Source of the DNA: Castor canadensis | Lineage: Eukaryota; Chordata; Mammalia; Rodentia; Castoridae | DNA length: 64,000 nt | NCBI RefSeq assembly: GCF_047511655.1 | Contig: NC_133390.1 | Coordinates: 168,722,083 to 168,786,082, forward strand | Direction: 5' to 3' | In this document: positions 3,131-59,259 of the stretch, in pieces | Layout: each line of letters opens with the position of its first letter | Numbering within the stretch: the stretch's first letter is position 1 | Position numbers and translations under genes: made by a program | Notes under the pieces: generated by a model | Seen by the model: only the letters and a program-made list of their open reading frames with translations | Told to the model about the DNA's origin: nothing | The model's database searches: none

Positions 3131-3143
3131 GTGGTCACTGTAA

Positions 3144-3518
3144 TGCTTTGGGAGTTTGCTAGCTGAGATACGGGACTCAGAGGCAGATTAGCAGGAAGCA
3201 ACATTTTATTGTGCCAGCACAGACTCAGAGGACTCGTGTCCAAAGGTTGAGCCCCAAGAACAAAAGGGGTCTCACCTTATGTACCCTTGCAAGCAGGTTA
3301 CAGAAGCAAAAAGCAAGGTCTAATCCATCTATGGTTATATTTAATTTTATTGGCTACTTTACCCTAGTGCTATGACTTTCCCCTCCCTGTTGCTATGTGA
3401 TCTTCCTCATGTTCAGATTTCTCAGGTTTTATCTCTCTGCTGTGCCATCCCTACCTCCCTGCTACTTTCTCAGGACTCAGGCCTAGACTGTTTTCTTCTG
3501 ATCCTCCTCCCTGCTACA
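3144..3518 (-). repeat. 3' LTR of the ERV1 fossil
   Basis: This is the left copy of the LTR pair. It starts tgctttgggag and ends cctccctgctaca on the plus strand, which gives TG...CA ends. The plus-strand cattttattg near 3202 is an AATAAA polyadenylation signal on the element's own (minus) strand. A purine-rich tract lies immediately inside the element at about 3519-3535. Confidence 0.85.
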
Positions 3519-5329
3519 TTATTTCTCCCTCTGATGCTCAGACCCACTTAGGGTCAAAGAGCATCATGTTTATTTAGGGGTTTGTATTTTTATAGCATTG
3601 TTACATGTGTAGCCGTTTTTCTTTTATAATAGTTTTGATAGATTGCAGCACCAGGGGAACCAGGCAGGGCAATATTAAGCGTGGTTTTAGAATTAGGCCT
3701 ATTGCCCTTATCAGGGTTTTGAGTCCACCTAAGGCAGAAAGCCATCTTTTAAACAGGTCATTGGGATCCCATCCTCTCCAAGTCTGGACAGGGATATGGG
3801 CAAGTTTTTTTTTATTTTGTCATGAGTCCCTTTTATAACCTTTTGTTTTTATCATTAATTTGTAAGTAGCAGTTGTTTAGGTTTGATTTTTTACAAACTT
3901 TTTCCTCAGAAGCAAGCAAATAGTCTAAAACCAAGCGGTTCTGATAGATGGCATTGCGCATCTTAGTGCTTTGTTTTGCCAGCAATTTGAGGGCTCTGGC
4001 TTTCATTAGTTATAATTTCAACAACAGCCTGCAGCCTGATGAGGTGGTTGAGCATATATAGAGGGGTGCGATAGCCCCAGGGCCCGTCTTCTGCGCAGGT
4101 GACCATAGTACTGGCTGATTTACTCAGGAGGCCATTTGTCATCTTTTTAATTGCCAATTTGTAAGGCACCCCGTTTTTGTCTACTTAATCCTTTATAAAT
4201 ATATGGGGACTCTCATGGGTAACAGTTACTAATCTGAGGTGTATCAGACTCTCAGGGTTAAGACCCTTTTAATCTATTTTTATACTAATTACTTTTTCCT
4301 GAGTTTAATGAGATGGCTTAAGTGCAGTGAACTTTACAGGGTTACAGGTGCCACGGGTGCAGTTAGGGGCAGCTTTCCCCTTGTGAAGGAGAGCTGTGTA
4401 TTTTGTCCTTTGTTAACCCAAATCAGTAACCATAAATAGTAAATATGCATCCTGCTCAAAAGGATAGAAAAGAGCAAATAAAAACCTTTCACAGTGAGAT
4501 CAATCAGCGGGGTGGTTTCTGCCAAGCCTATGGCGAAGACTAGGGTGAGAACTACAGCAACAGATACAGGCAAGGGGTGACAATGCATTACAGTGATATA
4601 ACTGGTGTGAAAAACAGCCCATTCGTCCTGTTGGAGAGTTGACTCCTCAAGCTTCTGCCATGTGTAGACTAGTCAGCTTCCAGTGGGTGACTGGAGCAGG
4701 GCTGTTGACCCACTGTTCTTGGTCCCCTGTTGTTTCCTGGGAAGCGGAGTCCTGCTGAGGGAGGGTGCTCAGGTTCTGGAGGGTGATCCAGCATGGTGAA
4801 GCTGGATCAGGGATGCACTCCCACTCGAGAGAAGCTGCCTTGACTCGTCTGTGGTGGATCCAAGGAGCAATCACTGTTACTTTAACTGCAATGGGAGTAC
4901 TAGACAAGATAACAACAAAAGGGCCCCTCCAGTGGGGTTTTCATGGGTGGATATGTTATTTACTTATTTATTTTTAACTGAGTAGAATTACCATGGCAAC
5001 AATATATTATCAGTATATATGTCCAAGAAAATGTTTTTTTTTAAAAAGTTAAAACCACCATCTTTAAGTATCAAAGGACATGTTTAGAGTCAGTAAAAAT
5101 AGTTATTTTGTCTCTATTTAAGTAGAAGACCCTGTTAAAAAAATATGAGTTTGTGTCTGGAAGGGCTTTAATGCCAGATAGCCACACATGCATAAGAACC
5201 ATTTCTTTAATCCTCTTGGCATTGGTTATTTTTGAGAGGTCTGGCACCAGTGACTCCATTTGAACTTTGATGGCATTCCCCCACTTGCCTCCAAACTGCT
5301 TCTCTCTGAGCAGTCTCTTTTGAAGATCT

Positions 5330-8027: not shown

Positions 8028-9508
8028 TGAGCACACCATTAGATAGATGCATAATCTGACAGCCATTAGCAAGGGAAACATAAGCATCTCATGACTGTCT
8101 CAATATCAGACCAAGCTTACTGCACCAAGCTTACAGTTTTTGTTGTTGTTGTTGGTTTTTTTTACCAGCAACAGCCAAAGTTGCTCCTTTTCCCACCCTT
8201 TTAGGTAGGTTCTCCCTGTTTATGCTCCCTAGAAGTAAAGGTGTCAGCAAGTTCAGTATTTCTGGCATATTTTAATAATCCTAAATTATTTTTTATTTAC
8301 TCTTTATTTTTAAAACATAAAAAGCTCAACTGAAGGAGTGTATTAAACCTCTTGTCCTTTTCTGTCTCCAAACATTTTATGACATTTTACTTTTTTTCTC
8401 TCTCTTCCCTTTCTTGCTTTCTCCTCTCTCTTTCTCTGTCCCCTCACTTCATTTATGAAGACCTCATCCTAATTTTGTTTCCATTCCTCCACTTCCCTCT
8501 CTCTACATTCACAACCCTTCTGCAACATTCCTTTTCTTTCAAGTCAGACCAGATCTTATGTATCAGTGCAATTCCATCCTTCATGTGCTAATTTTGTAAG
8601 AGCTCAGTTAGTGCTGTGCCTCAGTCTCCTTCAGGGTGCCCATTTGGGTGAAGATGTGCAAACTGGGGCACCAAAGCTACCCATCAAGACTGAAAGACTC
8701 TGATTTCTCCTCAGTCTGCCCAATGAATTGCTGCCTGCATTTAAATAAACAACAGAGTCTGGTTTTTTAAGACCAGTGTTAGCCTCTTGGCTTTTTCCAT
8801 TCTCCTGGGTGTTAGGGTATTTTTTAAAAACATAATTACTCTGTAAACTCCATTAATCTAGTGACCCTTCTGGGAGCCATCCTACACCAAAAGCAGGCCA
8901 ATCTACTTCACAAAGGACCTTTAGCTTGTTAGGAGTTAATTTAACTCCATAGTCTCCATTAAATCTCTTTTTAAAGTTATTAATCATACACTCCAAGGGA
9001 GTGTTTTTACTCTGATTTCCACCTATCTCCTCCCATTACCAGATTGCCAGACAGAGACAGAGCGGGAGGGAACTCCTCACTCACTTTGCAGCTGGGCTGC
9101 GTTCAGCTCACATTTTCATATACTCTCACACAGCACAGTACTTCCATACTGCTCCCCAAAACTGAGAGACATGGTTCACCCTAAAAAAGGGGGTTACTAG
9201 GGTGTCTCACTGGGAGGTGATCAATCTCCCCTTCTGCCTCCTGGGGCAGGCCTGACTATGAACCCTGGTTCTTATGAGTCTGATTATCGGTGCTCCCCTC
9301 CCCTTGCTGGTTCCTGCACCTCACTGGGTTCCGTTGTGCATCCGAGGCCTTCACCCCAACTCACCAGAAGGATGAATCCCACTCTGGATGAAGGTGTCCA
9401 TTGGCACCTGGTGTCATCTCCTCCTAGCGATCTGAGGAGGTGTACCCTGGTGACAAGGGAGGTGATAACTCATCATCTCTGCAGTCTGGATAATGAGCCC
9501 CCAAGAAA

Positions 9509-9884
9509 TGTTTCAGGAGTTTGCTAGCTGAAATATGTGACTCTGAGGCAGATTAGCAGGAAGCAACATTTTATTGTGCCAGCACAGACTCAGTGGACTC
9601 ATGTCCAAAGGCTGAGCCCTGAGAACAAAGGGGTCTCACCTCATATACCCTTGTAAGCAGGTTACAGAAGCAAAAAGCAAGGTCTAATCCATGTATGGTT
9701 ATATTTAATTTTATTGGCTACTTTATCCTAATGCTAAGTGGCTTTCCTCTCCCTGGTGCTACATGACCTTCCTCATGTTCAGATTTCTTAGGTTCTATCT
9801 CTCTGCTATGCCATCCCTACCTCCCTGCTACCTTCTCAGGACTCAGGCCTAGACTGTTTTCTTCTGATCCTCCTCCCTGCTACA
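9509..9884 (-). repeat. 5' LTR of the ERV1 fossil
   Basis: This is the right copy of the LTR pair, co-linear with 3144-3518 over its full length. On the element's strand the next bases inside the element read ttcttgggggctc. That matches the first part of the proline-tRNA primer binding site known from gammaretroviruses and supports the ERV1 assignment. Confidence 0.85.
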
Positions 9885-9888
9885 GTAA

Positions 9889-15358: not shown

Positions 15359-15673
15359 CTAGGAGCCCAGCCCATGCTGGGAACAATCTCTGGGGACACT
15401 GCAGTAAACGAGGGTGTCCTCCTGGGGTGGAAGCTTGGGCTTGGCCAGCCTGCACTGACACAACCCATGGAAAGCCTCGCGGAAGCACTGAGACATGAGG
15501 GTGTAGACGATGGGGTTGACAGCACTGTTCAGGTAGATGCAAAGGTGGCAGAAGAGAAAGAAGCTGAGGTTGAGGTAGGGTGGGCTCAGGAAGGAATTCA
15601 CCACCACCAGGGTGAGGTAGGGCAGCCACAGCAGAGCAAAAAGGATCACCACCACAGCCAGCATCTTGGTGAC
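15359..15673 (-). pseudogene. TRHR-like exon 2 (TM6, TM7 and C tail)
   Basis: The acceptor is a pyrimidine-rich tract ending ctggcag, directly before [19 protein letters not shown] (TM6). TM7 contains [14 protein letters not shown], and helix 8 and the tail continue to a TAG at 15361-15359, giving 104 residues. This exon is fully open and well preserved. Two positions that in human TRHR are arginines important for TRH (R283 after the TM6 WxPY and R306 in TM7, from memory) read leucine (PYLTL) and histidine (FCHLC). This exon would have to be read together with exon 1 to make a receptor. Confidence 0.85.
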
Positions 15674-16611
15674 CTGCCAGGAAAGATGGGAAAAGAAGAA
15701 TACGTGGGTGTCAGGGCAGAACCCTGAGCTCCAGACTTCTCTGTGAGCTTGCCAATGGAGCATCTGACCTTTGTCAAGCTGTGACTCATGCAAACCCTCC
15801 CTCCAACTCTGTCTCCACCTAGAAAACTCCTATGCATCCTTCCATGCCCTGTTCAGGTTATTTATCACAGGGAAACCTCCTCAGCTCCAATCCACCCCCA
15901 AAGCCTTGGATGGCCTTTCACTTCCTAGAAGCAAGTTCACTAACACACTCTTCCCCTGTTAGATGGAGACATAGCACTGCCTTCTGTGCAGGTGGTGTAA
16001 GGATTAGGAGAGTCAGTGCAGGTAAAGCACTCAGAACAGAGGCAGGCAGGTCCTAAGGACCACAGGGGTGATAGCTGCTGCCACTGTCACTTCTACTGCT
16101 ACTTCTACTACAGTTGCATGGGCTTTAGCAGTAGCCAGCTGCCAGTCCTTGGCACGCCCCCACCCCTCCACCCAACAGTCCCTTTCCCCCAACATTCCCA
16201 GCAACAAGCTCACTTCTGCACTCTCCTTAATCCTGCCTCTTCTCTCCTAAGCCTTCTGCTAATTCCACCTGGGCTTCCTGTATGCCCTGCCTCCCGACTC
16301 TGCAGATCTCAGCCATCAGAGCCATACAGCCCCAGACAACATAAACCCTCCCAGAGGTGGCACGCATCAAAAGCATGTTTTCTAAATTTCAAAATGAAAG
16401 TGCCAGAAAGCAGGTCTCTGTCAAGAGGATCTGGGAGACATCTCTAACACTGGGGAGGGCATCAGGGAACCCCAACTAAGTCAATGAACTTCAGCACTGA
16501 CACACCATCCAGAAACCGTGAAATCCCAGGAATTTCCTATTAGTCATAACTCCACATTTTGCCAAATTCAGATTCAGTTCCTTGCATTTAAGTCTTGTTT
16601 GGTGAATACTG

Positions 16612-16815
16612 AAGAGCAGTGTATGGGCTCTGGAACCAGGTTGCCAGGGTTCAAATCTAGGCTCTGGCACTTACCAACTCTGTAACCTCACTTTCCCATC
16701 TGTCAAACCAGGATGATAACAGTGCACACATTGTCATGTAAAAATGCAACATACTAACTTGAGTTAAGCGCTTAGGCCAGTGCCTGGCTCTTAGCAAATA
16801 CCCAGAAAATATAAA
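16612..16815 (+). mobile_element. MIR SINE, plus strand, inside the TRHR-like intron
   Basis: It has the classic MIR order: ggctctggaaccaggttgcc, then ggcacttaccaactctgtaa, then cccatctgtcaaa, and the tail phrase agcgcttaggccagtgcctgg. Confidence 0.85.
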
Positions 16816-16964
16816 ATGCTGTTCTTCTTGTCTACTCTGAATTTTTTAATGTTCTGGTTTTATTTAATGCCTCTTCTCTGTTGCAACTGTGCACTGCATG
16901 TTAGAGGGCTCTCTTAGGCATCAAAGAAGGCTCAATTCACACATAGCCCTCTTATTAAAAAAGA

Positions 16965-17130
16965 CAATAATAGGTACCATATATTGAGCACTTACTATGG
17001 ACCAGTCATAAGTTTCACTATTATCCATTTTACAGAGGAGGAAAACAAAGCTCAGATTGATGAAGCGACTTACCTAAAGTCACACAGCAAAGCTAGGCCT
17101 AGAACCCAGCTCTGGAATCCTCTTTTTACC
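16965..17130 (-). mobile_element. MIR SINE, minus strand
   Basis: The plus strand shows the reverse MIR pattern: attgagcacttactatgg, then attttacagaggaggaaaac, then aaagtcacacagcaaagc. It lies in the intron of the TRHR-like locus. Confidence 0.8.
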
Positions 17131-17934
17131 AGCAGTAGTTTCTCCTCTAAAGCACAGGCCCCGCCAGGCTGAGCTGAGGTAAGCAGAGTAGCCAACAGGC
17201 GAGAGGGAGGGAGAAAGGGGCATTTGTTCTGGGTGTATGGTGGCAATGGACCAACAGCCTAAGATTAATATTTCAAATCTGGTCAGCCTGCGTCCCACCC
17301 CATCCTGGTAAACCTGGCTGAGCAGAGGTGCCTGAAAGCAGAATGAGCAGGAGGGGCTGTTGGGAGCAGCTGGAAGGAGCCCCCATAGTAGGCCGACAGG
17401 GAGGCAGCATGGAGGTTTCTCACCAGCTCTGCAAGGTGTCCAGCCCCTTCCCCAGAAGCTGCAGTGAGGCAGGAGGCTTGAGGATAAAGACCAGTTGAGC
17501 CCAGAGAACTGTCCTTCCACCCACAGTGCTGAAAACCTGGAGCAGCCAGACTGCTGGAATGGGGGGCGGGGAACAACACCTAAGCAGTCCTGACAGTGGT
17601 GAATTTCCTACCCAGTCACCTTGTTGTGTCACGGTCATCACTCCTCATCCCCTAGGAGCCTATCTCCTTGTCTATACAAATAGATATTAAATCTTTCTTC
17701 AAGGATAACAATGGGCACAATCACAGAATCTAACACACAGTAAGTGCTCACTAAATGCTGGTTCTCTCCCCACCTCACTCAGACCCCTCCCTGTTAGCCT
17801 GTCCAGGTCCACTGAGAGAGCTTTAGTGCCAGATGGAGTAAAGTACTTGGGAAAATCACTTCACCTCTTTGAGCTTCAGTTCCCCTATTAGTAGAAGAAA
17901 GAGAATAATAGCTGCCTAGGTTCACTAGGCATGG

Positions 17935-18115
17935 AAATTTAATAATAGTAACCAGCATTAATTGAGCGTTTATTTGTGACATCCTTAAGACTTCAGATGT
18001 GTTAGCTCATTTCTCTGGACACTCCAATGCCATAGGCTCTGACAACATAACAGTGGAAACTGAGGTGCAGGAAGGTAGAGGCCATGCCTGCAAACATACA
18101 AGCTTACTAAGCGGA
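17935..18115 (-). mobile_element. MIR-like SINE, minus strand
   Basis: Reverse MIR wording (attgagcgtttatttgtgac, then gtggaaactgaggtgcagga) ends just before the donor of TRHR-like exon 1. It is more diverged than its neighbours. Confidence 0.6.
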
Positions 18116-18209
18116 ACAACAGAAATTTGAACTTTGAGACATCTGACTCCAGAAGAGCCCTGCATGCACCCACCACTCAGCTGGATCCAGGTGAGGATGG
18201 AGATCCTAC

Positions 18210-18941
18210 CTGCTTCCTGGAACTGAGGGTACCCTTCCTGCTCTTGGAGAAGCTTGCTTGGCGGGCATGATCGCCCTGGTTCACAGAGCTGGAGCAACTA
18301 GGAGGGAGCGGCCTGAGGAAGAGGACACGCGCAATGAGTGCGTAGAGCACAGTGGCCAAGCCCGGGGGGGCAGCGCGTAGAAGAGCGCGAAGTCCAGGAA
18401 GTACACTGGCAGGTAGAGAGATCGTGACACCGGTAGTCGCACATTGCCTCGCGCGTGTCCACCAAGAAGAGCCAGAGCCTGCAATAGGCGCCAGTGCCCA
18501 GCCACACCATTGCCGCGATGCGCTTGGCGCACGCCAAGGTGCACAATGCCTGGGCGCACAGAGGGTGGCAGATGGCGAGGTAGCGCTCCACAGTGAATGC
18601 GTGATGGAGCCGGTGGAGGTGTTGATGCCCAGGTACTGCAGGTAGGTGATGCCCAGGCAGCCTGCGTGGCCGAAGATCCAAACTCGGGCAGACGTCGCCT
18701 CAGTCACAGTGGGCACTGCGGCTGCCAGAAGTACGAGTAGGTCTGCAGCTGCCAGGCTCACCAGATAACAGTTGGTAGGTGTGACCACGTGGCGGCTCCG
18801 GACCACCACCAGGACCACCATGGTGTTGCTCACGACGCACACAAGGGGCACCAGGGTCAGCGTCACAGTCAGCGGAGGCCGCGGCATGGTGCCCAGGTCA
18901 GACGCGTTCGCGCGTTCAGGGGTCCGGGTGGGGTTCTCCAT
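18210..18941 (-). pseudogene. TRHR-like exon 1 (N terminus to TM5 and third loop)
   Basis: The start is ATG at 18941-18939; the N-terminal tail is about 25 residues with one NAS sequon at residue 12. TM1 spans about residues 26-48 and TM2 about 57-79; the conserved TM3 cysteine is at residue 95. The frame of similarity shifts after residue 114, again after MCDYR and again after FYALPP. Each shift equals one missing base, so exon length stays a multiple of three (732 nt) and the straight frame has no stop. The third-loop end reads GTLSSRKQ, followed by a donor gtagga. The exon is CpG-rich. Read straight through, both exons would give 348 residues, but TM3-end to TM5 would not form normal helices. 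Confidence 0.8.
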
Positions 18942-19372
18942 GCGCCCCTGCCTGCGCTGCGCCTTAAGGCAGCGATGAGTTGAGAAATAACCCCGGGCTG
19001 CAAAGGACGCTCTCAGTGCCGAGAGCTGGGGTCTCCTCGCTTTCTCCCGGGCCGGGCTGAACTGGTTTCTCCAGTCGGTGCAGCGTCTTATTTTCGCGCA
19101 GGACGCTGGGAATTCGGGGGAACCGGAGCTGGGTCAAAGGAATGGGTGTAGCTCTGTGCTCTGCATAATGATAGCTCAACGAAGCAAAGAAGGAGTGAGT
19201 GCTTTTCTGCACTAGGGGAGGTGTGGTCTGGAAGGCAGGACCACACCAAGCTGCATAAAGGAATGGCGGTGCCTTTTGTGGAGCCTGGCTCTCTATCCAA
19301 ACATAGAAGGTGCTGAAAAATTGTTTGCTGTTGCTAATCCAGCAATTGTGCTCTATAAAATTACTTCTTGCT

Positions 19373-38318: not shown

Positions 38319-38697
38319 TGTTAAACCTGGCTATCCTAGATGGAAAGCCCCAGGGCAGTTCAAAGCAAATAAATAACATTTAATCTAAGATTTAATAAAT
38401 AGGTTCATTTATAAAATCACAAATTCAGATTACTATAAATAAGTTCAGAGGATTCAGAGGCATGCAAACAAGTTCCAGACGAATTAATTTGAATTAATTT
38501 GAATTAATTCGTCTCTACCTGACAGGTAAAGGCAGCAGCTGCGGATGGGGCCTAGAGGATCGTGGGTGTCCCAGTGCTTACTCCACCTGCGCCCACCCCC
38601 TCCGCCATGCCCACTGGCTCCTTGCTCATTCCCACGTGGAAAGCAGATCCCAACAATTTTCATCACACAGTCATCATGCAGATGGAGAAACTGAGGC

Positions 38698-39177
38698 TCA
38701 GAGAGGTGCAGTGGCCAACCTACGGCCACTACCTAGGGAGGCAGCAGGAGGTGCGTGGGACCCCAGAGCTCTTGTTCCGCTCTGGGTCTGTCCACCCAGG
38801 CCGGGGCCCGGGGCCCGGGCGTGGAAGGGCGCCCCGGGGGACCGCGGTTGGCCGCAACGCCGGCTGTGCCTTCGCCGCAGGCGGGCGAGCAGGTGTCGGG
38901 CGCGCCTGGCCTCCTGCGCGGAGAAGAAGGAGGCGGCGATGGCGTGCCGCAGGCGCCGGGCGTAGGTCTGCAGCAGCACCGTGGCGCCGGCCAGGAGCTG
39001 CAGGGCGCCCGCGGCCAGCGGGGCCGCGGCGCGGGGACGCAGCGCGGGCAGCAGCGGGCAGCCGCGGGACGCCAGGCGCAGCTCCCACCGGTAGGAGCGC
39101 TGCGAGGACACCCACGGGCTCTCTGGCGGAGGCTGGTTGAAGAGGAAGGGGACGAAGCCCAGGACTGTGTAAGATGC
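38698..39177 (-). CDS. OCSTAMP: OCSTAMP coding exon 3 (C-terminal part)
   Basis: The acceptor (cctttttgaag) precedes ASYTVLGFVPFLFNQ. The exon codes for residues 350-508 of the joined protein and ends at a TGA (38700-38698). It includes the last membrane-like segment (about residues 399-418, AAAPLAAGALQLLAGATVLL), followed by a basic helix with AASFFSAQEARR. This region carries the DC-STAMP-like domain end. After about residue 458 similarity to human OCSTAMP, as I remember it, fades. A human-like tail, LHLSEPQFLHLH, is present just past the stop in the other frame (38640-38690). So the tail here differs from human, either as a rodent feature or through a frame shift at about 38705-38735. The exon is strongly CpG-rich. 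Confidence 0.9.
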   Translation of the reverse strand, partial: ASYTVLGFVPFLFNQPPPESPWVSSQRSYRWELRLASRGCPLLPALRPRAAAPLAAGALQLLAGATVLLQTYARRLRHAIAASFFSAQEARRARHLLARLRRRHSRRCGQPRSPGAPFHARAPGPGLGGQTQSGTRALGSHAPPAASLGSGRRLATAPL

Positions 39178-42160: not shown

Positions 42161-42437
42161 TCTGCAACTCAAGAAGACCTTGACCTTGACCTTGGGCAAA
42201 GTTACTTTAAGGTCCCTGGGTCCCAATATCCTCATCTGAAATAGGAATAAAAAGAGAACCCACTTCACAGCTGTTGTTGGATCAAGTAAGCTTATCTACA
42301 GATGCCCAGGACCCCACGGTTGACCCAAGAGTTGACACTCCGAGGCAAATTACATTTAGCTGTAAGGCAAGGGTCAAATGTCTTGCCCCCTCCCTCCAGT
42401 AAATGACCCAATGCCATCCTCCCATGGTCCCACTTAC

Positions 42438-43440
42438 ATCGTACTTGACTGTGAGCGTGATGGGCACAGCAGGCAACTTCTGAGCCCAGTCCACAGCTGC
42501 CTGAGCCAGGAGGAAGGCCACGTGGTCTGTGGCCACCGTCACAGCTGTGGCCACCAGGAGCAGTGCCAGCAGCCCCAGCTTCAGCACACAGCTCAGCAGC
42601 TCGTCCTGGGACAGCTTCGGCTGCACCACCTGCAGGAGCCAGGAGGGGGGAGGAGCGACCAGATGTGTGGCCTGAGCCTCTGCCAACTGCTGAGCCAGCT
42701 GCCGTGTCATGTAGACATTGTCGAACCGCAGGTCAGTCAGGTAGTGATGGAGGTACCAGGCCGACTCCACCAGGAGGCCCAGCATAAATAGCCCTGTGGC
42801 CACCCATTGGGTCCCCAGCGCTGCTGCCCGGGCCAGGGACTCCAGGCCAGAGAAGTCTTCCAGGACATGCTGAGTGACCCTGAGAATATGAAGCTGGAAG
42901 ACAGAGCCATTTCCCTGGGCCTCAAATGTCAGGCCCCTGCCATCTGCTTGGCCTGCGGGGCCCAGCACTCTGGACATGGCTTGCAGCTGGTGAGTGGTGT
43001 TGAGTAGACTCTCCAGGGAGCCCTCAGTGACACACCTCAGCACCTGCCCCACTGCACCCACGTTGGCTAAGACGTTTGGAACCACTGCAACAACCAGAGT
43101 GGCAGCACTGTAGGACAGGAGCAGCCGGCGGCCCTGCTCTGTGCCCAGGGTGAGCACACTGAGGGCAAACAGGCAGCGGACTGGGGGCATGAGGCCCAGG
43201 CTGAGGAAGATCAGGCAGCCACAGGCAGTGGTCACCCCAGCTGAGGGTCCCAGAGGATAAAGCTGAGAAGAGATCAGCCAATGGCGAAGGAGATCTGTGG
43301 CAGTGACAGCCAGGAAACCACACAGGAGGAGCTGGGTCAGCAACTGGCCACAACTGGTTGGGACAGGCTGGGCAAAGGCATCCCAGGCGGCCTGCAGGGG
43401 GACAAGTACTTTGCGGATCCCCAAGTACCAGAACTTCCAC
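42438..43440 (-). CDS. OCSTAMP: OCSTAMP coding exon 2 (main membrane region)
   Basis: This 1003-nt exon codes for residues 16-349. It opens after the acceptor ccttgtgcag with WKFWYLGIRKVLVPLQAAWD and ends ITLTVKYD before the donor gtaagtg. Hydrophobic segments lie at about residues 47-66, 83-101, 119-140, 227-248 and 299-325. Sequons are at N162 (NTT) and N192 (NGS). The frame is intact and matches human OCSTAMP, as I remember it, over its whole length. OCSTAMP is a plasma-membrane multi-pass protein of the DC-STAMP-like family, induced by RANKL and required with DC-STAMP for fusion of mononuclear precursors into osteoclasts. The open frame extends upstream of 43440 to 43592, but that part is intron read-through. 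Confidence 0.95.
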
Positions 43441-53948: not shown

Positions 53949-54125
53949 TCAGAGGGTCCGAAATGTGTCATTGGCCAAGGTGGGTGGCAGTGCTGTGACG
54001 TTGGCTGAATGGACATTGGCCCAGTCCGGGAAGGTGCCCAGCTGGAAGATGGTCTGTGCCCAGGTGTTCATGGCCAGGCTGAGCAGCAGGACACCCATCA
54101 GATTCATCAGGAAGCCTGTCCGCAC
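53949..54125 (-). CDS. SLC13A3: SLC13A3 last coding exon
   Basis: This 177-nt exon codes for the last 58 residues of the sodium/dicarboxylate cotransporter NaDC3, from VRTGFLMNLMGVLLLSLAMN (final membrane helix) to NDTFRTL and a TGA at 53951-53949. The acceptor is ccccgttgcag. The extracellular end keeps two sequons, NVT and NDT, which are glycosylation sites in the family. The transporter carries succinate, alpha-ketoglutarate and similar dicarboxylates with three sodium ions across the basolateral membrane of kidney proximal tubule and in other tissues. The frame is intact and highly conserved. Confidence 0.95.
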   Translation of the reverse strand: MRTGFLMNLMGVLLLSLAMNTWAQTIFQLGTFPDWANVHSANVTALPPTLANDTFRTL

Positions 54126-56273
54126 CTGCAACGGGGCCCCCATGCAGATGGCAAAACAACATACTTACGCACACGCACATCTACACCTATAAACACACAC
54201 GTGCATGCCCACACATGGTGGTGCAGGCCAGTTAAGGCTACACTTGCCTGTTGGGAAGAATTTTTCGTTTGGAAGTTTCTCTCTAAGTAGGTAGAAAACT
54301 CTTGGCCAATTCCTCCTCTCTGGAGGCTCTCACAGGGATCAGTCCACCTGGGGCTGAAAATCTCCGGTTCCTGGTTGCTTCACCTTAGTGTTACCCAGCG
54401 TGCATTGCACGGAGAGAAAGCAAGTCCTTGTTCAATGCTGTCTCCAGTGTGTGACTCCCCTGGGGGCTGTCGTGGCCTTAGTCTGCTCTCTACCTTACCC
54501 ACCACCCTTTGCAACAAGCACAGAGAGGCTTAGAACCTTCTCCAGGCAACTGTTATCAGGAGAATCTAATTATTTTACTTTTATTGCTTTGCACTTATTT
54601 GTGTGTGTGTGTGACTAGAGTTTGAACTTGGACTTTGTGCTTGCAAAGCAGGTAGGTGCTCTACCCCTTGAACCACGCCCCCAGCCAGAAACTTTTCTTT
54701 TTCAATACTCTTAAGTTTTAAAAAATATGCAAAGCTGATTTAGTGAAAAGGCATACGTGGTGAAGGCAAGAAGCCAAATGTAAGGCTACGGAAACACTGT
54801 ACTGTGTGGCCATCTCTGTTCTGGGGCCTGAAAGCCCCTGGCTTTGGAGAAGGAAAAGGACAAAGTGTGGGAAACTGGGGGGGGGGTGGGGAGTCCGTTT
54901 TCCAGAGTCCTGGAGCCAGGCTGGAGGTTCCTACACGTCCCACATTAGTTACCCTAATTAGCAACTAAATCATGACTCCTGGGAGCAAACCCTGCAGGCC
55001 AGGTGGGCCACACACTGGCTGCTTATGGGGTCCCTTGGACCTTTCCACATCTCAGCAAGTCTCTGCCTTTGAAGGTGTCACCATTTCTCTCCTCTCTCTC
55101 TTTGTTCTCTAAACCTGCCCCTCACCACCTTTTCTCTAAATAGCCTCCCTGCTTCCACACTGGTCCCTCTGCCCACTCCAGTCAGCTGCAAAGTGCGCAT
55201 GTGAGAGGCTAAGTCACACCATCGCCCTGCCTGATACCCCACTGGAACCTCTCACTGAGTCTGAATGAGGCCCCATATCTGAGCCCTCCACTCCGCTCCC
55301 TCTACACAGGGCCCTCTCCAGTTCCACTCCTGACCCTGCTCCCCACCTCTGGGCCTTTGCACTTGCTGTGCCTTCTGCTCACACAGCCCTTGTCCGTTTC
55401 CTGTGCAAGCCTGGCTGCTTTTCAAGACCAGGTCTCAGCTCAAAGTCACCTGGTAGGAAAGGCCTCCTTCCCAATCCATCTGAAGTATCTCCCATTGTCC
55501 TCTTCCACTCCCTCATGTCCTGTATCTTATTTCCTTCTTTACACTTAGCAATGCTAAATTAACATCATGTTTTAAAAATCGTCTTGGAGGCAGCGCTGAG
55601 CCACTCCCACTGCTGCCCCCCCCAGTGGCTAGAATGCAGAATGCACTCAGCAAGCTCATGGAAGGAATGAGTGAACCAAGAAGGGACCATCTGTCTCCCT
55701 TCCTCTCTTCTCCTCTCTCCTCAGAAGTGTATCACTTCCTGCCTCTCTCCACTCTTGCTGGTTCTGTCTCCATTGATCCTGCTGGGGTCTCGTGCCCAAT
55801 TAAGTCAATCTCCCTTTTTGGCTGTGTCAACTCAGGACACTGTGCAAGGGCCCCAGATAGCCAGGGGCAAAGGGAGGAGAGGCAGAAGGTAATCGGGAGG
55901 AGGACTCAGCAGGGAGACCCATTCTTTGGGGAACTGCCAAAGGTTGGTCCAGGTAAAACCTTGGGGACTCCCCACACTGCCACCACCCTGGACTTCTGTC
56001 CATCTCACTCCCCAGCTGACCAGACCCGGGATCCCACCCCCAAGTCCCAGGGTATGTCCAGAAAGTCCCAGAGAGGGCACTGCTATGGGAAGCAGTGGCC
56101 AGGCAGTGTTTCTGGATCTTGTCTAGCATGAGGATTGTCCCAGAGCGTTTGCTAACTCAGCCTCTGAGTGCTACTCAGAATTGGAGGGCGGGGCAGGAGT
56201 GCAGAGATCCTGTCCAGATGCCTGGCCCACTGCCTGGTGCCCCCCAGTGAGACCATGAAATGCCCGGACTCAC
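54126..56273 (-). other. SLC13A3: SLC13A3 last intron
   Basis: It runs from donor gtgagtccg (next to 56274) to the acceptor next to 54125. It contains an ID SINE at 54612-54686 and otherwise unique-looking sequence. The plus-strand open frame of 168 codons at 55625-56131 is treated as chance. Confidence 0.9.
54612..54686 (-). mobile_element. ID-type SINE, minus strand
   Basis: The plus strand reads ctagagtttgaacttggact, then ggtaggtgctctaccccttg and aaccacgcccccagcc, preceded by a short GT run. Confidence 0.85.
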
Positions 56274-56411
56274 CATGTCTTTAACCAGCAAGTGTCCAGA
56301 GGCGAAGGCAATTGAGTTGGGGGGCGTAGAGACAGGCAGCATGAAGGCATAGGAACAGCCAACTGTGCCGGGTATCATCAGATACAGTGGATGCACTCTC
56401 AGGCGGATGGC
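56274..56411 (-). CDS. SLC13A3: SLC13A3 penultimate coding exon
   Basis: This 138-nt, 46-codon exon begins AIRLRVHPLYLMIPGTVG after acceptor gatggacatcctggcag-type sequence and ends LLVKDM at donor gtgagt. It contains CSYAFMLPVSTPPNSIAFA. This matches the sodium:sulfate symporter family signature (small residue-S-x2-F-x2-P-V-S-x3-N) except for its last position. Both borders are phase 0. Confidence 0.95.
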
Positions 56412-58477: not shown

Positions 58478-58639
58478 CAGCTCCGCCAGGACGGGCAGGA
58501 AGATGATGATGGTGGCCGTGTTGCTGGCGAACTCCGTGAAGAAGGCGATGACGATGGTAATGAGCAGGACAGCCAGCACAGGGGGCACATGCTCCAGGGG
58601 GTGTAGCCGCCCACCGATCCATGCCGACAGCCCGGACTC
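58478..58639 (-). CDS. SLC13A3: SLC13A3 third-last coding exon
   Basis: This 162-nt, 54-codon exon begins ESGLSAWIGGRLHPLEHVPP after acceptor cctgtcctcag and ends FLPVLAEL at donor gtgagg, both in phase 0. It carries the EFASNTATIII stretch with the SNT motif that in the SLC13/DASS family contributes to sodium and substrate binding in the C-terminal half. The frame is intact. Upstream exons are not found between here and 64000, so they lie beyond the right edge. Confidence 0.95.
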
Positions 58640-59259
58640 CTGAGGACAGGGGCAGCCTTCACTCCATGCCCACCTCCGCCACCTCCGCGGGGGTGGCCCA
58701 GGGCGCCCACCCAACCACAGCACTGCCCTTCCTTCCCAGGCGGGGCGAGTCAGGTGCAAAGAGGGGCAGAGAAATGTCACCCATCCAGCCAGGAGCCTCT
58801 CTGCTTTGAACTTCACTCCATACTCCACAGGCCGGGGACCCAAAACGCTGGGTCCCTGATAATTCACTTGGTTAGAAGCAGAGGTTCATTTCCATTTGGA
58901 TCCACCATCCGTAAACACCAACATGAGTGGGAGAGGGGGGTTGGACCCTTTAGGTGAATTTCATTCCCCCAAGGACAGTTATTAACAAGGAATTAGTTAT
59001 CACGTATATAAAATATCCATTATTATCATATAAGAAATTGATGCTACATGAATTTATATATCAGATATATGAGGCATAGCTGATGTCTCATATATAGCGT
59101 AAAGCAAGTATTGGGTGTATCTCAAATGCAATACCATCAACGTGGTATCAGTACGTGGGAAATTGAGATTGATGACCCATTCTTAGGACGTTTATCACAA
59201 TGGTATTCAGACACCTATTAACATTAACATCGCAGTACTAGTCACTGTCATAAGGATCG

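Follow-up and report, generated by a model that had tools for sequence, protein, structure and literature searches.

A probable unitary pseudogene of the thyrotropin-releasing hormone receptor TRHR3 beside OCSTAMP and SLC13A3 in the genome of Castor canadensis

Does a rodent genome still hold the third vertebrate receptor for the thyrotropin-releasing hormone (TRH), and in what state? This question is raised by a stretch of 64,000 nucleotides of Castor canadensis (assembly GCF_047511655.1, contig NC_133390.1, positions 168,722,083 to 168,786,082; hereafter, the window), which carries a TRH-receptor-like gene of two exons on the minus strand, from an ATG at 18941 to a stop codon at 15361-15359. 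The original prediction, made from the letters alone, had described a two-exon class A G protein-coupled receptor (GPCR) with motifs specific to the TRH receptors, and had proposed a separate and decaying paralogue next to OCSTAMP, lost in human and mouse. The analysis presented here indicates that the locus is very probably what is left of TRHR3, the third TRH receptor of the vertebrates, as a unitary pseudogene that has kept its ancestral position next to OCSTAMP and SLC13A3.

The exons (Table 1) are joined by intact splice signals, with the donor of exon 1 reading CAG/GTAGGA, in which the GT follows directly on the codon CAG, and the acceptor of exon 2 reading CCTGGCAG/GTCACC. Human TRHR is the top match in PDB for both exons (E 1.2e-32 for exon 1 and 1.8e-33 for exon 2), with the runner-up receptors being far weaker (E 1.7e-10 and 2.1e-11, respectively). 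A tblastn search with human TRHR1 recovers the gene in four pieces, in the frames -3, -2, and -1 of exon 1 (joint E 5e-44) and in frame -1 of exon 2 (E 3e-31), and finds nothing better than E 0.5 elsewhere in the window. The end of exon 1, once again in frame -3, is matched by phmmer alone, weakly (i-Evalue 0.008), and terminates in SSRKQ at the splice site. Three of the four translations score above the Pfam cut-off for 7tm_1 (two readings of exon 1 at E ~6.6e-15, and exon 2 at E 5.5e-10), and the fourth, a piece of exon 1 in frame -2, falls slightly short of it (29.6 vs 30.5 bits). A chance match is ruled out by the E-values of the PDB and tblastn comparisons for both exons, and the gene is, by its predicted product, a member of the TRH receptor family of the class A GPCRs. 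A scan of the start region for promoters of the bacterial type was empty, which is of little meaning in a mammal.

The paralogue in question can be narrowed down by comparison with the rest of the genome (2.81 Gb in 181 contigs, with chromosomes labelled C3, C5, C11, and C15). The best five of the 112 matches to human TRHR1 fall at three loci, at 168.59 Mb on C3, 1.19 Mb on C15, and in the window, at 168.74 Mb on C5. The C3 locus is TRHR1, which is 97% identical to the human protein (151 of 156 compared residues, with 118/120 in the first stretch and 31/34 in the last) and apparently whole over the compared part, the interval between the compared stretches of its first coding exon having the length predicted by human TRHR1. 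The C15 locus is TRHR2, and is 73.5% identical to a rodent TRHR2, the sequence of which is given here as we take it to be. The identity of the window gene is 54% to human TRHR1 and 55% to the same presumed TRHR2. It resembles TRHR1 in the position of the intron (the GT donor of the C3 gene follows the same KQ codons) and in most of the residues of the ligand pocket, and differs from it in this low identity and in its chromosome. It resembles the TRHR2 of rodents at a similar level, and TRHR2 is also broken in this genome, but the C15 gene lies on another chromosome and carries an additional intron at the ERY motif, through which exon 1 of the window gene runs continuously. An intron at this DRY/ERY position is reported as a trait of TRHR2 in rodents and fishes (PMC3151243).

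In a tree of six sequences (310 columns, JTT+G4, with a partial GHSR from the same genome left out, and the TRHR1 of this genome occupying 109 of the 310 columns), the window gene stands on a separate branch. All four placements that nest it within the TRHR1 or the TRHR2 pair are rejected (approximately unbiased [AU] test, p <=0.0005; Shimodaira–Hasegawa [SH] test, p <=0.031; the AU values of two of the four differed between two test runs, and those quoted are from the run with four placements). Together with the identities of 54-55%, this rules out the gene being TRHR1 or TRHR2 itself. That it might be a degraded duplicate or a retrocopy of one of them is scarcely credible; the near-equal alignment to both, at 54-55%, would allow it, but the proper GT-AG intron rules out a retrocopy, the tests reject its placement within the TRHR1 or the TRHR2 pair, no intron stands at its ERY motif, unlike in TRHR2, and a duplicate of recent origin should show a much higher identity. 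A DNA search of the genome with the window gene returned, apart from the gene itself, two stretches of TRHR2 (74% and 70%) and 11 short matches to parts of the intron, and no other close copy was found in either the protein or the DNA searches, which score the best candidates only. The gene is, therefore, as far as its sequence goes, a paralogue separate from TRHR1 and TRHR2. The structural part of the original prediction holds, with all three of the quoted motifs recovered and the exon coordinates exact, and the separate paralogue that it proposed withstood the tree test on these six sequences.

The gene is interrupted by three frame breaks inside ~240 bases of exon 1, which leave the region from the end of the third transmembrane segment (TM3) into TM5 out of frame. 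Given that the shifts of -1, -1, and +2 sum to zero, the frame after the third break is that of the ATG once again, and the spliced frame is open over 348 codons. The homologous frames contain no in-frame stop in 345 codons, and the wrong frames of exon 1 contain 11 stops in 486 codons. At this density, a wrong frame of ~77 codons would be open by chance with a probability of ~0.17, so that the open frame is no evidence of use. Three frame breaks in an unprocessed gene with a GT-AG intron, and with no other close copy among the best-scored candidates of the genome, are what is expected of a unitary pseudogene. An annotation that relies on stop codons only could mistake this gene for an intact one.

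The ancestral product would, by homology, have been a class A GPCR activated by TRH. Because of the three indels, the frame of the ATG no longer spells the ERY motif or TM4, nor does it spell the second extracellular loop or half of TM5, and a transcript would yield a protein of 348 residues without a premature stop, predicted to comprise TM1-3, 77 to 80 foreign residues, and the remainder of TM5 through TM7, which should not form a working receptor. The open frame might, however, still be expressed in another role, such as a truncated partner that alters the trafficking of TRHR1. The 348-codon spliced frame with its intact start and splice sites would be in keeping with this, as would the CpG content of the start region (18210-19200), where exon 1 has an observed/expected ratio of 0.70 and the sequence upstream of it one of 0.82, vs 0.19 in the whole window, as though methylation in the germ line still spared this region. 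Given the loss of TM4 and half of TM5, however, and the weakness of an openness that chance would produce at ~0.17, such a role is considered very unlikely.

The residues expected to matter for the ligand bear on the pseudogene reading as well. Human TRHR1 and the TRHR2 sequence assumed here agree at 183 positions, and the window gene deviates from human TRHR1 at 39 of these. When 17 key positions of the ligand pocket and its structural surroundings are read in the homologous frames, 14 are the same as in human TRHR1, the three exceptions being S113T, R283L, and R306H; the positions are drawn mostly from two accounts of receptor structure (PMC9437008, PMC9592576), with the C98/C179 loop disulphide from a review (PMC9485831). 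R306 is reported as a contact of TRH, and its replacement by alanine as impairing TRHR signalling (PMC9437008), and zebrafish Trh-r3 is described with an arginine at the matching place (PMC13072134). R283 neighbours S113 in the TRHR structure (PMC9592576), and does not appear in the lists of TRH contacts consulted. The replacement of R306 and of the adjacent R283 fits relaxed constraint, although any of the three changes may be older than the breaks.

The TRHR2 of the same genome (C15:1192501-1199500) is also broken, by four frame breaks as read. Its TM1 runs through all three frames (LLVCT, GIVG, and AMVVLVV), which amounts to two breaks; in the third intracellular loop, the frame of the SRKQ that precedes the second splice site is not that of the earlier part of the loop, and the fourth break falls past TM6, ahead of the third extracellular loop. 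The residues at human Y282 and R283 are N and C, and the start codon expected from the presumed TRHR2 is a threonine codon, preceded at a distance of a few codons by an ATG in the same frame. The frames read contain no in-frame stop in 344 codons. With ratios of indels to substitutions that we assume to be 0.10-0.15, and three breaks per gene, the neutral divergence since the loss would be ~2-3% (range 0.4-8.5%); the fourth break raises the value for TRHR2 by a third, and the TRHR2 pieces that were used include a few out-of-frame residues. TRHR2 and TRHR3 seem to have been lost recently and at about the same time, with a wide error. This species apparently lacks both of the extra TRH receptors, and TRH would, very probably, act through TRHR1 alone in this animal. 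It is quite possible, although somewhat less probable than the contrary, that a single rodent lineage lost TRHR2 and TRHR3 within the same recent interval, and so reached the human one-receptor state independently.

The place of the gene points in the same direction as its sequence. The window gene, OCSTAMP, and SLC13A3 all lie on the minus strand (the human SLC13A3 sequence was checked; those of human OCSTAMP and ELMO2 were used as we take them to be), and the flanking genes identified are a C2H2 zinc-finger gene on one side, presumably ZNF334, and OCSTAMP on the other, within the SLC13A3 block (Table 1). The order in human 20q13 is, we assume, ELMO2-ZNF334-OCSTAMP-SLC13A3, which would place the window gene in a block that looks conserved. 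The DC_STAMP family is represented in the genome by nine matches at three places, in the window, at 164.47 Mb on C3, and on C11, and the C3 matches lie 4.1 Mb from TRHR1. TRHR1 and the window gene are thus each accompanied by a relative of DC-STAMP, as would be expected of a pair that arose in the early vertebrate genome duplications; among the matches listed in a search of the literature on paralogons, no title dealt with the TRH receptors. For four ray-finned fishes, TRHR3 and SLC13A3 are reported to share a block, and the history of the fish locus is described as complex, with loss, duplication, or translocation (PMC3151243). As far as these fishes and SLC13A3 go, the location test proposed with the original prediction agrees with the window, and the prediction's claims of a copy beside OCSTAMP and of decay find their counterparts in the two OCSTAMP exons on the same strand and in the three frame breaks of exon 1. 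A survey of the dog GPCRs, which tabulates a TRHR3 for the dog and marks it as absent from human, rat, and mouse, agrees with the loss in human and mouse that had been supposed (PMC2651185).

Table 1. Coordinates of the window gene, its frame breaks, and the neighbouring genes (positions of the window, unless a chromosome is given)
Feature	Position	Strand	Remarks
Probable TRHR3, exon 1	18210..18941	-	732 nt; ATG at 18941; TM1 to third intracellular loop; holds all three frame breaks
Frame break 1	18599..18602	-	net -1; end of TM3, ahead of the ERY motif
Frame break 2	18430..18434	-	net -1; second extracellular loop, directly past the Tyr matching human Y181
Frame break 3	18360..18370	-	net +2 vs human TRHR1 length; TM5, past the conserved Pro; C7/G3 run
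Single coding intron	15674..18209	-	GT-AG; junction SSRKQ/VTKML
Probable TRHR3, exon 2	15359..15673	-	TM6, TM7, and short tail; stop 15361-15359
OCSTAMP, last exon	38595..39174	-	124 residues in frame, 89 identical to the presumed human protein; then a poorly conserved tail
OCSTAMP, large exon	42414..43439	-	272/342 residues identical to the presumed human protein; no frame break
SLC13A3, last exon	53952..54125	-	match to human SLC13A3
SLC13A3, exon	56259..56411	-	match to human SLC13A3
SLC13A3, exon	58478..58672	-	first few codons of the match probably intron
C2H2 gene, other side, beyond the window	C5 168.709-168.711 Mb		14 fingers in one 618-codon frame
ELMO2 exons, other side, beyond the window	C5 ~168.646-168.648 Mb		presumed human ELMO2 as query

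A number of observations weigh against the interpretation of the locus as a TRHR3 pseudogene. The three possible orders of the subtypes all stand in the tree (AU 0.83, 0.18, and 0.18), and the orthology with TRHR3 rests on exclusion, place, and the literature, because the tree holds no TRHR3 from another vertebrate. The retention of the start, both splice sites, and 14 of the 17 key residues implies either a recent loss or breaks that could be errors of assembly, in which case the animal itself would carry an intact gene, with all three breaks being artefacts in a GC-rich exon. The absence of in-frame stops and the position of the third break at a homopolymer run are also in keeping with such errors, as is the tail of OCSTAMP (38595-38843), a CCCCGGG-rich region, which changes frame and meets a stop codon in frame when set against the human protein as we take it to be. 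This tail may be naturally shorter, or may reflect a slip of the assembly. The decay is read from one assembly, but this assembly is chromosome-scale, with contigs of up to 210 Mb, and the first two breaks lie outside homopolymers of six or more. In OCSTAMP and SLC13A3, no break occurs over ~640 codons of alignment, a count that excludes the OCSTAMP tail, vs three in the 345 codons of TRHR3 and four in the 344 of TRHR2. Internal stops occur in only one of the 149 listed 7tm_1 matches of the genome, most of which cover the domain in a single frame, in a set that is biased by score toward intact genes, and the substitutions at R306 and R283 are inexplicable by indel errors. On this balance, errors of assembly are regarded as an unlikely source of the three breaks, and a recently lost TRHR3 is preferred.

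The loss of a TRHR3 has parallels in the published record. Dog TRHR3 is reported to be closest to that of Xenopus, at 59% (PMC2651185), and, among the matches listed, the dog paper is, by title, the only one on TRHR3 in a mammalian genome. A review from 2022 places TRHR3 in birds and fish, and counts two TRH receptors in rodents and one in humans (PMC9485831). The window gene is like the TRHR3 of other vertebrates in belonging to the same family, in being distinct from TRHR1 and TRHR2, and in its proximity to SLC13A3, as in the fish gene (PMC3151243), a likeness drawn by description; it differs in its three indels and in the replacement of R283 and R306, the dog TRHR3 being a present gene (PMC2651185). 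TRHR2 is reported as lost in primates, chicken, and fugu (PMC2117022), which is likewise the repeated loss of an extra receptor, with TRHR1 being kept. Unlike those cases, TRHR2 and TRHR3 are both still visible here as wrecks in one genome. Among the matches listed from the open-licence literature, there was neither a rodent TRHR3 remnant nor a rodent described as having lost TRHR2 and TRHR3 together. A mammalian TRHR3 is, then, already in print, and what is newly seen is a rodent remnant with an open spliced frame, together with a broken TRHR2.

Some other features of the window and the chromosome were recorded alongside the gene. Two direct repeats (3142-3521 and 9507-9887), 90-95% alike and 6.4 kb apart, look like the ends of a long terminal repeat element. 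The 20-base word GGCTGGTGGAGTGGCTCAAG, which we take to be the head of a short interspersed element (SINE), has six matches with <=3 mismatches, vs 0.01 expected, and would point to a rodent from the group of beavers and kangaroo rats. Toward the end of C5 (C5:182183482-182184288), a further stretch that matches 7tm_1 is interrupted by one TGA and three TAG codons; it is perhaps another broken peptide receptor, for which the name NPBWR2 is a guess.

The presence of two TRH receptors in rodents, against one in humans, means that the effects of TRH observed in mice or rats do not necessarily apply to humans, and a rodent without both of the extra receptors would, as a natural model, come closer to the human case. 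If the joint loss is true, the animal would represent a natural double knock-out, showing the needs of TRH signalling. As both wrecks lie at fixed places in the genome, each of the losses is datable across the rodents, and the locus adds a further case to the TRHR3 record of the placental mammals, among which the dog is the one reported in the matches listed.

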